From Prochlorococcus sp. AG-363-O16 (GTDB lineage Bacteria; Cyanobacteriota; Cyanobacteriia; PCC-6307; Cyanobiaceae): DNA of 64,000 bases. A program made the translations under genes and the position numbers. The notes below the pieces were generated by a model that made no database searches, was not told the origin of the DNA, and worked only from the letters and a program-made list of their open reading frames with translations. The first letter of the stretch is position 1, and the number at the start of each line of letters is the position of its first letter. This document shows, one piece after another, positions 15,940 through 56,725 of the stretch. The stretch lies in contig QCGA01000001.1 of NCBI GenBank assembly GCA_003280095.1, forward strand, positions 62,001-126,000, written 5' to 3'.

Positions 15940-16158
15940 ATGAAAACAATCGACGAGCACATTCAAAAGGATCAATCAGAGATCCAATCCGCCAAGGCAC
16001 AAGGTGATGATGCCAAGGTTCGTCATCTCACTGAAGAGCTCCACTCACTTGAGGAATACAAGGAGCACCATCCTGACGACAAGCATGATCCAAATGCACT
16101 GGAATTGTTTTGCGATGCAAACCCTGACGAGCCAGAGTGCCTCGTATATGACGACTAG
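15940..16158 (+). CDS. cp12: CP12 Calvin-cycle regulatory protein
   Basis: C-terminus LELFCDANPDEPECLVYDD. Confidence 0.93.
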   Translation: MKTIDEHIQKDQSEIQSAKAQGDDAKVRHLTEELHSLEEYKEHHPDDKHDPNALELFCDANPDEPECLVYDD

Positions 16159-39159: not shown

Positions 39160-39453
39160 TTAAGTCTTAACAGCGCACTTTTCAGTCTCTTCAGTAGCGA
39201 GCGCAGCTTTTTTTTCTGCTGGGGCTAACGATTTGAGTTCTTCTTGAAGCTCATGCTCTCGCTCATCGATGATTTTGATACGAGACTGATAGTTCTCTTC
39301 CAGCATCTTGCGAGAAGCTTCAAGATTGTCGAGTTCCTCTTGCCGTTGCTTAAGCTTGATCTCTTCTAGTTGGCTATCAGAGACCACATAAACAGTCCTC
39401 ATTGGAGAAAAAAATGAGTCGGCAAGAACGGTACCGAATAAAGATGAATACAT
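39160..39453 (-). CDS. coiled-coil hypothetical protein (start may be internal Met)
   Basis: Heptad-like KLKQRQEELDNLEASRKMLEENYQSRIKIIDEREHELQEEL. Confidence 0.6.
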   Translation of the reverse strand: MYSSLFGTVLADSFFSPMRTVYVVSDSQLEEIKLKQRQEELDNLEASRKMLEENYQSRIKIIDEREHELQEELKSLAPAEKKAALATEETEKCAVKT

Positions 39454-39661
39454 GATGTTTTGTGCGGGAACACCATTACTTTGCCTCTAGTTTCAACAAG
39501 AACTAATGTTGTAAACCGAAGAAATCTATACGGTAAATATCACCTGATTCGGTTAATAATACTATAGATAGTAAGAACCGTAAAGCCTAAATGCTTGGGT
39601 AAAAACCCTATATGAAATTCACTTAAATGTGTTATAAATGAATTAGCCGAATAGGAGGATT

Positions 39662-39820
39662 ATGAAACTAAGAACTCCTTTTACTGTTGTTGCAAATCCA
39701 CTGAGAGATCTTGACCATATCCACGATTTTAATTACAAGTTACCCAATGAAAATGATTTTTGGGAGCAAGAATGTAAGCTTCACCCCACTAAATCTACTT
39801 GTAGACTTTATGAAGTGTAG
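39662..39820 (+). CDS. 52-aa protein with CP12-C-terminus-like motif
   Basis: MKLRTPFTVVANPLRDLDHIHDFNYKLPNENDFWEQECKLHPTKSTCRLYEV; Cx3Px4Cx2Y spacing equals host CP12 tail. Confidence 0.65.
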   Translation: MKLRTPFTVVANPLRDLDHIHDFNYKLPNENDFWEQECKLHPTKSTCRLYEV

Positions 39821-39849
39821 ACAGGATTCTTTGCCGTTATTTAGGAGAT

Positions 39850-40752
39850 TTGCATACAGAAGCTAAGCATGTGAAGTCTAGAGAAACTCTTAGGACCGAT
39901 GCACCTATTGACCATGCAGGCAAAGGAGAGAATTTTGCTCCTACTGATTTATTGGCTACAGCTGTAGGGACTTGTTTCCTTACAGTGATGGGAATCACTG
40001 CCAAAGAAAAAGGGTGGAAATTAGATGAAATAACAGTTGCAATTGATAAGAAGATGACAACTCAGGGTCCTCGCAAGATTAGATCTTTATTACTTCAAAT
40101 TGATATGCCAACTAATTTAGGAGCTGATCAATTAAAGGTCCTTCAAAAGGTAACGAAAGACTGTCCTGTTTTGAGAAACTTAAATGACTCAATAAAAATA
40201 AAAGTCAAGTGGAATCAATTAAAACAGAAAAAAAAGACTTCTCTGAATTTTGTCGCTACTAATGTCTTTCGTGAAACTCCTGATGTCACGTTCTTTGATG
40301 CAGTAGTCAACGGCTCTAATGGATCTGATGTGGTGATTCATCACGGAGCTGCAATTTCTCCTCCTAACGACAAAGAATTTGAGCAGTATTACGTTCATCA
40401 CCATCAGATTGATCACAACTTAGTTTTAGAAGGAAGCCGCACTTTTACTCTCCTCAACCCTGCATGGGATGAGCCTCATCACGTTATTTACCTCAATCCA
40501 AAAATGGGTGCTCTTCAAATACCTATTGGGACTTATCACCAATCTGTTTCAGGGACAGAGGGCAGCATGGTATTGAACCAAGCAGTAAGAGATAAGGATT
40601 TTGATCCAAGTAAGGAATTTATTCCTGTCAGTTTGCGGGATAGGACTGATTTGAGAAAAGCAAAAGCAGCTGAGCCTGTTTATTGGATTTGGGATGATGG
40701 AAGAATCAGAAGATTGAAAGTACGTCGTGCTAGCAAAGCTAATATTTTTTGA
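39850..40752 (+). CDS. OsmC-like domain fused to cupin domain
   Basis: OsmC: DAPIDHAGKGENFAPTDLLATAVGTCFLTVMGI; cupin: HHHQIDHNLVLEGSRTF...GALQIPIGTYHQSV; OsmC homology extends upstream of 39850. Confidence 0.8.
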   Translation: MHTEAKHVKSRETLRTDAPIDHAGKGENFAPTDLLATAVGTCFLTVMGITAKEKGWKLDEITVAIDKKMTTQGPRKIRSLLLQIDMPTNLGADQLKVLQKVTKDCPVLRNLNDSIKIKVKWNQLKQKKKTSLNFVATNVFRETPDVTFFDAVVNGSNGSDVVIHHGAAISPPNDKEFEQYYVHHHQIDHNLVLEGSRTFTLLNPAWDEPHHVIYLNPKMGALQIPIGTYHQSVSGTEGSMVLNQAVRDKDFDPSKEFIPVSLRDRTDLRKAKAAEPVYWIWDDGRIRRLKVRRASKANIF

Positions 40753-43295: not shown

Positions 43296-44324
43296 ATGCG
43301 CATTGGTATTAATGGTTTTGGTCGGATTGGCCGCTTAGTTTTTCGTGCCTTATGGGGTCGTTCCAATATTGAACTAGTTCATATCAATGACCCAGCAGGA
43401 GATGCTCCAACAGCAGCTCATCTACTGGAATTTGACTCCGTTCATGGTCGTTGGGACCAGCACATTGATTCCGACTTAAAAGGGATCAAGATTGATGGTC
43501 AATTTCTTAGCTACTCGCAAGAGAGTGCTCCCACTAATGTTCCATGGGAGCAAGCGGGTGTTGACTTTGTTCTGGAATGCAGTGGAAAGATAAAAACACC
43601 AGAACTATTAAACCCTTACTTTGATCAGTGTGGCATTAAAAGAGTTGTTGTTGCTTGTCCCGTGACAGGTGAAGTGGCAGGGACAGAAGCTCTAAATATC
43701 GTCTATGGAATCAACCATAATCTTTACGACCCTAAGATTCATCGACTAGTCACAGCTGCATCGTGTACAACCAATTGCTTGGCACCAGTTGTCAAAGTTG
43801 TCAATGAAAACTTTGGAATCATGCATGGAGCCATTACCACTCTTCATGACATCACCAATACACAGGTTCCAATTGACTCTTTTAAAAGCGACTTAAGGCG
43901 AGCACGCAGCAGTATTCAAAGCCTCATCCCCACTACAACTGGTTCGGCTAAAGCTATAGGAATGATTTTCCCCGAGCTTCAAGGCAAATTAAACGGACAT
44001 GCTGTACGTGTTCCACTGTTGAATGCATCCCTGACTGATGCCGTTTTCGAACTTGAGAGAAAGGTCTCAGTTCAAGATGTTAATGACGCTTTTCAACGTG
44101 CAGCGGAAGGAGACTTAAAAGGAATTCTTGGCTATGAAGAAAGGCCCTTAGTCTCCATTGACTACGTCAATGATTCACGCAGTTCAATTATTGATGCTTT
44201 GTCCACAATGGTTATAGATGGGAATCAATTAAAAGTTTTTGCCTGGTATGACAATGAATGGGGTTACAGCTGTCGTATGGCAGACCTAACTTCTTATGTC
44301 GTGAATCTAGATAGCAAAGGTTAA
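43296..44324 (+). CDS. gap: glyceraldehyde-3-phosphate dehydrogenase, ArsJ-associated
   Basis: [27 protein letters not shown] active site; next to arsJ-like MFS. Confidence 0.93.
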
Positions 44325-53601: not shown

Positions 53602-53883
53602 TTAGGGATTAACTATTTTTGTCTTTGCAAGGCGTTCTGCCTCTTGCTCTATATAGACATCAGGATCGAAATCAATGATCGTTTGCAGTCCTCGCCATTG
53701 AGTGTTGTGCATGATGTGCTGCGCCAGAGATAACTTTCCTGTGGGTTTCATATTGAGGTAAAGCTTCCCTTGTACAGCTTCTAAGTACTCGTCTAAAACA
53801 CCGAGATCTTTCATCTTGTATAGCTGTGATCGGCTGGAATAACCCAAAAACCTGGCCGCCTCTGTGAAGGTGCAAAGCATCAT
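53602..53883 (-). CDS. small DNA-binding/excisionase-like protein
   Basis: CTFTEAARFLGYSSRSQLYKMKDLGVLDEYL helix-turn-helix-like. Confidence 0.6.
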   Translation of the reverse strand: MMLCTFTEAARFLGYSSRSQLYKMKDLGVLDEYLEAVQGKLYLNMKPTGKLSLAQHIMHNTQWRGLQTIIDFDPDVYIEQEAERLAKTKIVNP

Positions 53884-54080
53884 TTAAGTCGATTTAATTA
53901 ATTGCAGTGAATTCAGGTTAATTCGCCTCAATCCTTTTTATAAATAGTTTCTCGCTTGATCATGCCTGTTTGTCTCTAATTATTTTTGCTGTCTCTGGTT
54001 AATAAAAGAGGCCCGAATACACCCGCATACTTTTCGCCAGTAAGGACCCAAGAGAAAGTTGGTATACCCCCTATATGCAC

Positions 54081-55334
54081 TCATGTAGGAAAACCTCGTT
54101 TTCTGCGATAAACCCATAACGGCCTACCTCCTACTGCAAGACCTAATTTTTGTTGTTTACGCTCAATTTCATCTTCCACAAAAAGATCTACTAAGACTCT
54201 TCGTGTGTGTTCCGGGCTCTTGTGGAAGTGAGTAGCAATCTCATTGATTGATCTCCATTGATCAGATTCAGATAGATATTCCTTTGCATATGTCTTCAAA
54301 TCTTTCCTTTCAGATGGAGGTAACTCATCCCCACCAGCACTCTTAAATGTCCAAGTGAGATCTTCTTGATTGCCGGTGAGACTCCATGTAGTTCCCACTT
54401 CGCAATTTCGTGCCTTATCTAAACAGGACAAAACAAACTTGAACTCTCTTGGACTGGATTGAGGCTGTCGCCAAATAGCCCAAACGTCAGACACTGCACC
54501 AGCTTGAGAACCAGCGCCTAATACATCGTGCATAGTCACGCCATTTCGCGATTGGTTTCTATCAAGCTTTCGTAAGTGGGAAGTGATTACAACCAGAATG
54601 TTTTTGCGGCTTGCTAGTTGATTTAGGGCATACAAAGGATGAGCAAACTCAGGATCTTTCATGGAGATTCCTTGGTTTCCTAAAAGCGTTGTCACGCTGT
54701 CCAACATCACGACGCCGTAGTTGCCTCGATCAATCGTTTGTTCAAGGCGTTGAAGATCAAGAGTGTTCCAACCGTCTTCACCAAAGACAAAGTCAAAAGC
54801 ATCAGGATCTAAACCCATCAATTTGCATTTACGCCAACAGTCGTTTTTGGGTTCATCGGCTTGGACATATAAGACCTTCTTTTTCTTTGTTTCTAATTGC
54901 CCAATCCCTTCGTCGTTTTTTAAGAAGGGTTCACCCTTACTAATGGACGAAGCTAGTGAATAAAGGAAGGTTGTTTTGCCTGTGCCTACATCAGCAGACA
55001 ACATCACAGTTGCACCTTGAGCCCCAAATGAGTCAACAATCCATTGAGCTTTTTCCCTTGACTGAAGCAGCTCTCCTACTGAAATAGGTTTTCCTACATA
55101 CGCGTGTATAGGGGTTGGTGGTTTCTCTACACGTTTCCCTACATGCTTTCCTATACGCATGGGGATAGGGACTGTTTCCTTTTCCTCTCGTTCTCGTTTT
55201 CTTAGAGCAACCTTTAAATCAGTTTCGTAGTCATACCCATCTACTTGCTTACTGTCTCGTGAAAGCTCACCTAGCAAGACAAGACGTTCAAATGCTCCTT
55301 GTTGATCTTCAAACATCGAACGGCCTCCAAACAT
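54081..55334 (-). CDS. RecA/RepA-like AAA ATPase
   Basis: LSADVGTGKTTFLYSLA Walker A, VVMLDSVTTLL Walker B, LGAGSQAGAVSDVWAIWR; C-terminal winged-helix-like segment. Confidence 0.85.
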   Translation of the reverse strand: MFGGRSMFEDQQGAFERLVLLGELSRDSKQVDGYDYETDLKVALRKREREEKETVPIPMRIGKHVGKRVEKPPTPIHAYVGKPISVGELLQSREKAQWIVDSFGAQGATVMLSADVGTGKTTFLYSLASSISKGEPFLKNDEGIGQLETKKKKVLYVQADEPKNDCWRKCKLMGLDPDAFDFVFGEDGWNTLDLQRLEQTIDRGNYGVVMLDSVTTLLGNQGISMKDPEFAHPLYALNQLASRKNILVVITSHLRKLDRNQSRNGVTMHDVLGAGSQAGAVSDVWAIWRQPQSSPREFKFVLSCLDKARNCEVGTTWSLTGNQEDLTWTFKSAGGDELPPSERKDLKTYAKEYLSESDQWRSINEIATHFHKSPEHTRRVLVDLFVEDEIERKQQKLGLAVGGRPLWVYRRKRGFPT

Positions 55335-55578
55335 GGACCTGTTCGTAGAGGGTTAGATCACGTTGTTGAGCCAGAATATTAATGGCACTAAGCAGAGCTA
55401 ATAGTTCAAAAAGTGGCTTCTCGTTGTCATAGACAACTCGCGGATCCTCTGGCATTTCATTCGACCAATTCAGATCGAAAGAAGACGTCTCAAAAGACTT
55501 TGATTTGGATGTCTCACCCATTAGATTGGCTTTAACTTGAGTCTCTTGAGCCGCCGCGGGAACGGTGGCTTTTTTCAT
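55309..55578 (-). CDS. hypothetical protein of replication module
   Basis: 89-aa ORF overlapping the ATPase start. Confidence 0.5.
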   Translation of the reverse strand: MKKATVPAAAQETQVKANLMGETSKSKSFETSSFDLNWSNEMPEDPRVVYDNEKPLFELLALLSAINILAQQRDLTLYEQVHVWRPFDV

Positions 55579-55579
55579 G

Positions 55580-55846
55580 TCAGGCCCTCTTCAAAAGAAC
55601 TTTTGCTTTGCCTGAATAGGTTTCCATTTCGTAACTCGGTAGTCGTCTAAAACCTGTGAAAGCAGCTTCGGTTTTGGCTTGATGCCATTGCAAAGTGCCA
55701 TTGCTGGTTATTCCTCCCCAGCGAAAATCAATCCCCTCTCGAAATGGAGAGAGTTTGCTTCTGCGCAATTTCAGAATTGTTTGTGGATGGACGCCAAGGT
55801 GCTCGGCCATTGCAGCCGTGCTGACCCACTCTTTTTTTGTGTTCAT
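55580..55846 (-). CDS. HTH DNA-binding (excisionase-like) protein
   Basis: EWVSTAAMAEHLGVHPQTILKLRRSKLSPF. Confidence 0.75.
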   Translation of the reverse strand: MNTKKEWVSTAAMAEHLGVHPQTILKLRRSKLSPFREGIDFRWGGITSNGTLQWHQAKTEAAFTGFRRLPSYEMETYSGKAKVLLKRA

Positions 55847-55850
55847 CTAT

Positions 55851-56162
55851 TTAATTCTCGGTTTGTCCTAAAAATTTTTTCTGAGAAGCTTCAACACCGA
55901 TCTCAGGATCAACCCAAAACGCACCAGAAACTGTCGTGAAGTAATCACGCTCCATGGCTTCTGGAGCCAGAGCAAAAGTGGCTGCTCGCTTTTCAGGAGT
56001 CCAGCTTGAGTCGACTAAATTTTGTTCCCCTAATGAAACTCTGGCTATACCTTTTTTGATTTGTTTTGGTCGATCAGCGTATTTATCGATCGATCGAGAC
56101 TTGCCTTTTTTTGTCGGCATGAAAAAACCTCCTTGGATTGTTGGAGGCTTGGTTCTCTGCAT
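55851..56162 (-). CDS. hypothetical protein of the right-end module
   Basis: ORF upstream of the HTH gene; likely start MPTKKGKSRS. Confidence 0.5.
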   Translation of the reverse strand: MQRTKPPTIQGGFFMPTKKGKSRSIDKYADRPKQIKKGIARVSLGEQNLVDSSWTPEKRAATFALAPEAMERDYFTTVSGAFWVDPEIGVEASQKKFLGQTEN

Positions 56163-56291: not shown

Positions 56292-56333
56292 ACCTATCAT
56301 TATGCTTTTAGTCAGGAATTTAAAACTCCTTCT

Positions 56334-56384
56334 CTTGCAATTAAAGAGGGGGCCTTCCAGCCCCGATGAGTCATTTGGGTGATA
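56334..56384. repeat. att-like repeat, right (within tmRNA coding-piece 3' end)
   Basis: Aligns without gaps to 37374-37424; contains the tmRNA terminator hairpin. Confidence 0.88.
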
Positions 56385-56538
56385 AGGCTGACTTGACCCC
56401 ATCTCCCTCTATGGGTCAGGCAGCAACAGGGGCTGTCTGACGGGAGAAACGAACGATTTTGTTCGCTGTTACGGGTTTGCTCTTACCGAGCAGGCTTCAG
56501 TCACCCTCCTTATGCCTCGTCGAAACCATTGCAGCCCC
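56345..56538 (-). ncRNA. ssrA: tmRNA coding piece (5' half of mature RNA) of permuted two-piece ssrA; tag (A)ANKIVRFSRQTAPVAA
   Basis: GGGGCTGCAATGGTTTCGACG 5' end at 56538; tag ORF 56466-56416 ends TGA; terminal hairpin GGGGCTGGAAGGCCCC. Confidence 0.93.
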
Positions 56539-56558
56539 AAAACTAATAAAATAAAAAG

Positions 56559-56620
56559 TGGAGCTGAGCGGAATCGAACCGCTGTCCGGGACACTGGTGT
56601 GGATCACCTAGTCCACCAAA
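56559..56620 (-). ncRNA. ssrA: tmRNA acceptor piece (tRNA-like 3' half) of permuted ssrA
   Basis: GGACAGCGGTTCGATTCCGCTCAGCTCCA located 5' of the coding piece on the minus strand, 20-nt spacer. Confidence 0.93.
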
Positions 56621-56725
56621 AGATGGACTCTTTAATTCTTGCAGGATTTATGAAAATATGTACAGCAATCTATCGAAATTAGACCAGAGAATAAAACATA
56701 ATTTCCAAAGGAAGGGCCTAAATAG

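Follow-up and report, generated by a model that had tools for sequence, protein, structure and literature searches.

The window examined here, a 64,000-nucleotide stretch of the Prochlorococcus sp. AG-363-O16 genome, contains an unlisted 52-residue open reading frame (ORF) that is a real, conserved gene and whose product, MKLRTPFTVVANPLRDLDHIHDFNYKLPNENDFWEQECKLHPTKSTCRLYEV, ends in a cysteine loop resembling that of CP12, which switches the Calvin cycle off in the dark. On the strength of sequence comparisons, the product is proposed to be a tail-only, CP12-like microprotein that acts on host Gap2 in a redox-dependent way, a reading given a probability of about 0.5 and in which the GAPDH step is one that we infer. 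The tail, CKLHPTKSTCRLYEV, reads C-x3-P-x4-C-x2-Y-x2-COOH. The initial annotation had described its spacing as the same as that of the host CP12 tail, and the translated ORF confirms an exact match to CP12 that extends to the distance from the C-terminus. Only two window frames of at least 40 aa carry the motif at their C-terminus, this ORF and the host CP12, and none of 300 random windows generated under a dinucleotide model carries one. An AGGAGG sequence lies a few bases 5' of the ATG.

Table 1. Features of the window and the evidence bearing on them.
Feature	Position	Strand	Evidence or remark
Host CP12, comparison protein, tail FCDANPDEPECLVYDD	15940..16158	+	PF02672, E=2.8e-18
Divergent 97-aa ORF	39160..39453	-	Lies upstream of the peptide at most loci
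Shine-Dalgarno region AATAGGAGGATT	39651..39661	+	Immediately 5' of the ATG; kept in OsmC-linked copies
Putative tail-only CP12-like microprotein, 52 aa, subfamily A	39662..39820	+	AGGAGG site, homologues, dN/dS
CP12-like C-terminal tail, 21 residues, DFWEQECKLHPTKSTCRLYEV	39755..39817	+	C-x3-P-x4-C invariant, Y near-invariant
OsmC-like gene with a fused cupin-like part	39816..40752	+	PF02566, E=4.6e-15; beside the peptide in 33/34 loci
ArsJ-associated GAPDH, judged not the partner	43296..44324	+	NF033735, 549.5 bits; without the CP12-binding Arg

A second copy in the source genome shares 69% identity with the 52-aa peptide. The initial annotation would have lost its footing had the peptide not been conserved in related strains or had its homologues lacked the two cysteines; homologues are present in 22 of 60 relatives (E<=0.01), and Cys38, Pro42 and Cys47 are invariant in both peptide alignments (A1 and A3). 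According to public records, the carriers are Prochlorococcus single-cell genomes and one Synechococcaceae MAG. Median dN/dS is 0.21 among host copies and about 0.08 among phage copies, and the peptide is under purifying selection. The peptide matches no Pfam or NCBIfam model (no Pfam match at E<=10) and no family for it was found in PHROGs; by Pfam, it is not a CP12. An AlphaFold model built from 30 sequences is poor (mean pLDDT 62.7, with a low-confidence helix at residues 30–40), and a Foldseek search with it returned no PDB fold match. A chance ORF bearing a chance motif would likewise be short, unlisted and without a family model, but this explanation is contradicted by the dN/dS values, the phage homologues and the conservation, the last of which refutes it outright; its probability is negligible.

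The case for CP12 likeness is made at the level of the family. A 21-column profile, A2, was built from the tails of the subfamily A peptides alone, with no CP12 included. Aligned to a CP12 alignment with hhalign, it gives a probability of 87% in exact register, and its score of 26.1 beats all 400 column shuffles (maximum 19.6). A phmmer search of 177,635 PDB sequences with a sister tail returned six distinct matches, all of them CP12 and all in register (3b1j, 3zdf, 6kez, 3qv1, 6gfo and 2lj9; E 0.12–3.5). When a CP12-only tail profile is run on 8,803 frames, the family ranks directly behind true CP12 (best E 4.7e-5), and its members rise further once phage CP12 tails are added to the profile. 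Conversely, in several genomes without the family, A2 matches true CP12 tails in register, though below threshold (e.g. G010:C1:604631 and G037:C120). Intermediate tails occur in phage proteins whose N-termini differ (PSSM2_066, ACG-2014f gp032 and S-RIM44), and phage tails such as CDNHPDADECKVYDD bridge the peptide family and CP12; PSSM2_066 lies above the Pfam CP12 cut-off, its tail alone giving E=9.8e-7.

Comparisons that start from the single peptide yield no significant match. BLASTP against the host CP12 gives no signal (E=21), and the peptide alone is not significant against the CP12 tail profile (E about 3–5), so the likeness is claimed for the family only. Of 30 subfamily A members, the Pfam CP12 model picks up 4 (best E=0.0027), below the Pfam gathering score; the profile search that the initial annotation called for thus touches the subfamily and leaves the 52-aa peptide itself unmatched. 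Its description of a mini CP12-like protein stands for the tail, which keeps the Cys pair and resembles CP12 beyond chance at family level, and does not stand for the peptide taken by itself. Neither phmmer of the peptide nor hmmsearch of A2 produced anything useful against the PDB, and the match of one sister protein (L134) to designed TPR repeats in the phmmer search of the PDB was judged spurious. Full-length profiles (A3 vs A4) do not outscore the best of 400 shuffles; the N-terminal part is therefore not claimed to be CP12-like.

The family shares with CP12 (PF02672, including the cyanobacterial CP12-C types and cyanophage CP12) the C-x3-P-x4-C-x2-Y-x2 loop at the extreme C-terminus, and both are small Cys-pair proteins carried by cyanophages. 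It differs in lacking the CP12 N-terminal half and the AWD_VEE core, in having His and Thr/Ser in place of two near-invariant CP12 residues, the Asn preceding the Pro and the Glu preceding the second Cys, and in falling below the Pfam cut-off. The core is absent from 30/30 subfamily A members and missing from the host picocyanobacterial CP12 too; likewise, the N-terminal Cys pair is absent from both, and the C-terminal CxxxPxxxxC pair required of CP12 is present in subfamily A. The GapB C-terminal extension and the CP12-like tail of ADK3 also place a CP12 tail on a different protein body, but theirs are large enzymes whereas the bodies of this family are 25–60 residues long and of several unrelated types. 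With tail homology to the CP12 C-terminus found at family level, the family would be placed in the same CP12-tail-bearing class as GapB and ADK3, whose CxxxPxxxxC ends, like that of CP12, are reported to bind GAPDH (PMC9406205). The T4-GC63 cluster (P-SSM2 PSSM2_066; phrog_2603), already labelled CP12 (PMC3037559), similarly joins a CP12 tail to an unrelated N-terminus; unlike the present family, its tail keeps the CP12-type acidic residues, and its N-terminus does not resemble MKLxTPF. CP12 tails on other proteins are thus already known, and the tail-only picocyanobacterial and phage set would be a new variation on this theme, without being a CP12 or categorically new; no description of these proteins was found in a partial coverage of the literature.

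Within the source's family, A2 matches occur in 66 of 161 genomes (E<=1e-4), with a maximum of five per genome; none were found outside that family when 292 genomes sampled across the phylum were searched. At E<=1e-3, 134 small-ORF matches representing 132 distinct proteins were retrieved with their loci. The proteins are 44–80 residues long and consist of a short, variable N-terminal part followed by the CP12-type Cys loop. Clustering of the pre-tail parts yields at least five groups with unrelated N-termini, so that the same tail is borne by unrelated bodies. The largest group combines MKLxTPF.. with the B type, MKLTTTFxIL..; the others comprise YYGDSIGLAPI, two Synechococcus-type groups, MKLFNQF and several singletons. 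The YYGD[SA]IGLAPI body is strongly conserved in its group (loci L126, L129, L131, L132 and L320), and A-type and B-type proteins lie 1–2 kb apart in several genomes (L099, L101 and L108). The extreme ends of the tails vary: the peptide ends in Y-E-V, most host copies have E or D as the last or penultimate residue, and phage copies end in C-D, with a Cys at the penultimate position.

The survey of cyanophages found relatives in P-TIM68 and on about 40 IMG/VR contigs. The peptide, first described as travelling with an element, is not element-specific. P-TIM68 gp144 is 56% identical to the peptide and is encoded between Hsp20 (PF00011) and DNA polymerase, in a phage that also encodes a separate true CP12. 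Of the 52 loci from the IMG/VR scan, about 40 encode full-length forms that include the tail (44–51 aa), and hsp20 is close to the peptide gene in nearly all. For the B- and C-type proteins no phage homologue of their own was found, and their clear cyanophage matches are only to the P-TIM68 peptide. In P-SSM2-type phages, an unannotated 30–32-aa ORF overlaps or follows hsp20 and keeps the N-terminal part, with MKLTSPFSIIKNAISDLKR, but not the tail (L149 3001–3096; L196–L202).

It is plausible that oxidation of the Cys pair would close the tail into a loop, as in CP12, GapB and ADK3, and that the closed tail would enter the active site of the host photosynthetic Gap2 rather than that of the arsenic GAPDH carried as cargo. 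Its penultimate Glu, provided by the Y-E-V terminus, would reach the Arg of Gap2 SDRNP, and the tail would inhibit Gap2 or compete with CP12 until released by thioredoxin. The N-terminal part, in place of the PRK-binding half of CP12, may recruit another partner. A GAPDH Arg (R77 for GapB, R82 in Chlamydomonas) meets a Glu at the last or penultimate position of the tail (PMC4436894), and host Gap2 (G000:C16) has the tail-binding Arg within SDRNPLNLPW. The OsmC-linked copies occur in a peroxide/thiol context, which would fit a redox-controlled role. More tentatively, and with the odds against it, the several tail-only CP12 mimics per genome in picocyanobacteria and their phages could serve as redox-gated adaptors whose swappable N-termini bring partners to the Gap2 active site or which compete with CP12 for it.

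The initial annotation had linked the peptide to a different enzyme, picturing a mini-CP12 that travels with the element and regulates its own GAPDH. The two genes do lie within 4 kb of each other in the window and in a few relatives; however, the cargo enzyme is of the ArsJ-associated type (NF033735 cut-off, 450 bits), its neighbours are ArsJ and an ArsR-type regulator, and it is an arsenate/arsenic-detoxification enzyme. It has SQESAP aligned where Gap2 has SDRNPL, and the Arg that holds CP12 and GapB tails is therefore absent. Linkage is also rare: of 34 loci, only about 6 have Ars genes less than 5 kb from the peptide, against 33 with OsmC adjacent, and peptide alleles vary while the Ars genes are 100% identical. 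The link to the cargo GAPDH is accordingly set aside as very improbable. A broader objection is that the tail may be a generic picocyanobacterial C-terminal motif for some other thiol partner (thioredoxin, a metal, a protease or a localisation function), with a convergent likeness to CP12. The replaced acidic residues, the many unrelated N-termini and the extra Cys of phage tails favour convergence, for which a profile as short as 21 columns also leaves room, but the spacing to the C-terminus is that of CP12, the PDB matches of the sister tail are to CP12 only, and phage tails bridge the two families, so this reading is considered rather unlikely.

The neighbouring gene offers another explanation for the tail: the peptide could assist the OsmC/cupin protein as its redox or assembly partner, or could be a leader ORF needed for the OsmC start, with the tail serving OsmC and not GAPDH. 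OsmC follows directly 3' of the peptide at constant spacing, in the -1 frame relative to it in all 33 loci with a readable OsmC start region. The peptide ends GTG TAG or GTG TAA (33/33 readable loci), and, overlapping this stop (GTGTAG), the OsmC frame reads GTA in place of the ATG of unlinked homologues (33/33 readable; window 39814–39852; L204–L237). A canonical start (ATG/GTG/TTG) beside the OsmC N-terminus is missing in nearly all readable loci, and with this overlap OsmC translation probably depends on the peptide. The codons from GTA to RYLG are conserved at the protein level (pN 0.095, pS 0.52), which indicates that translation would begin at GTA or upstream. This points either to initiation at an unusual GUA codon or to a -1 frameshift that fuses OsmC to the peptide. 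A tail dedicated to OsmC nevertheless seems unlikely: phage copies follow hsp20 rather than osmC, OsmC does not adjoin other host copies that bear this tail, and locus L209 retains an intact peptide beside a broken OsmC.

The tail-only microprotein acting on Gap2 is the preferred reading. Weighing against it are the non-significant CP12 match of the peptide by itself, the His and Thr/Ser substitutions, the penultimate Cys of phage copies, the poor structural model and the phages that keep the N-terminal part alone. If this reading is correct, Prochlorococcus and Synechococcus, the most abundant phototrophs of the ocean, and their cyanophages would carry a second, unannotated CP12-tailed set, adding new players to the control of carbon flux in ocean phototrophs, and the CP12 tail would be a module that can move between proteins in both bacteria and viruses. 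Phage CP12 itself is believed to reroute the carbon flow of infected hosts. The family peptides are small enough for synthesis and direct trial on Gap2.

Two further observations concern the locus. Divergence peaks locally at the peptide gene (window 39611–39820 vs loci L218, L222 and L212). At L218, identity to the window is 97–100% for the integrase, OsmC and GAPDH and 71–87% for the peptide, as if its allele had been exchanged by recombination. A tmRNA gene at 56325–56648 adjoins minus-strand element-like genes at 53602–56162 and marks a possible integration site.
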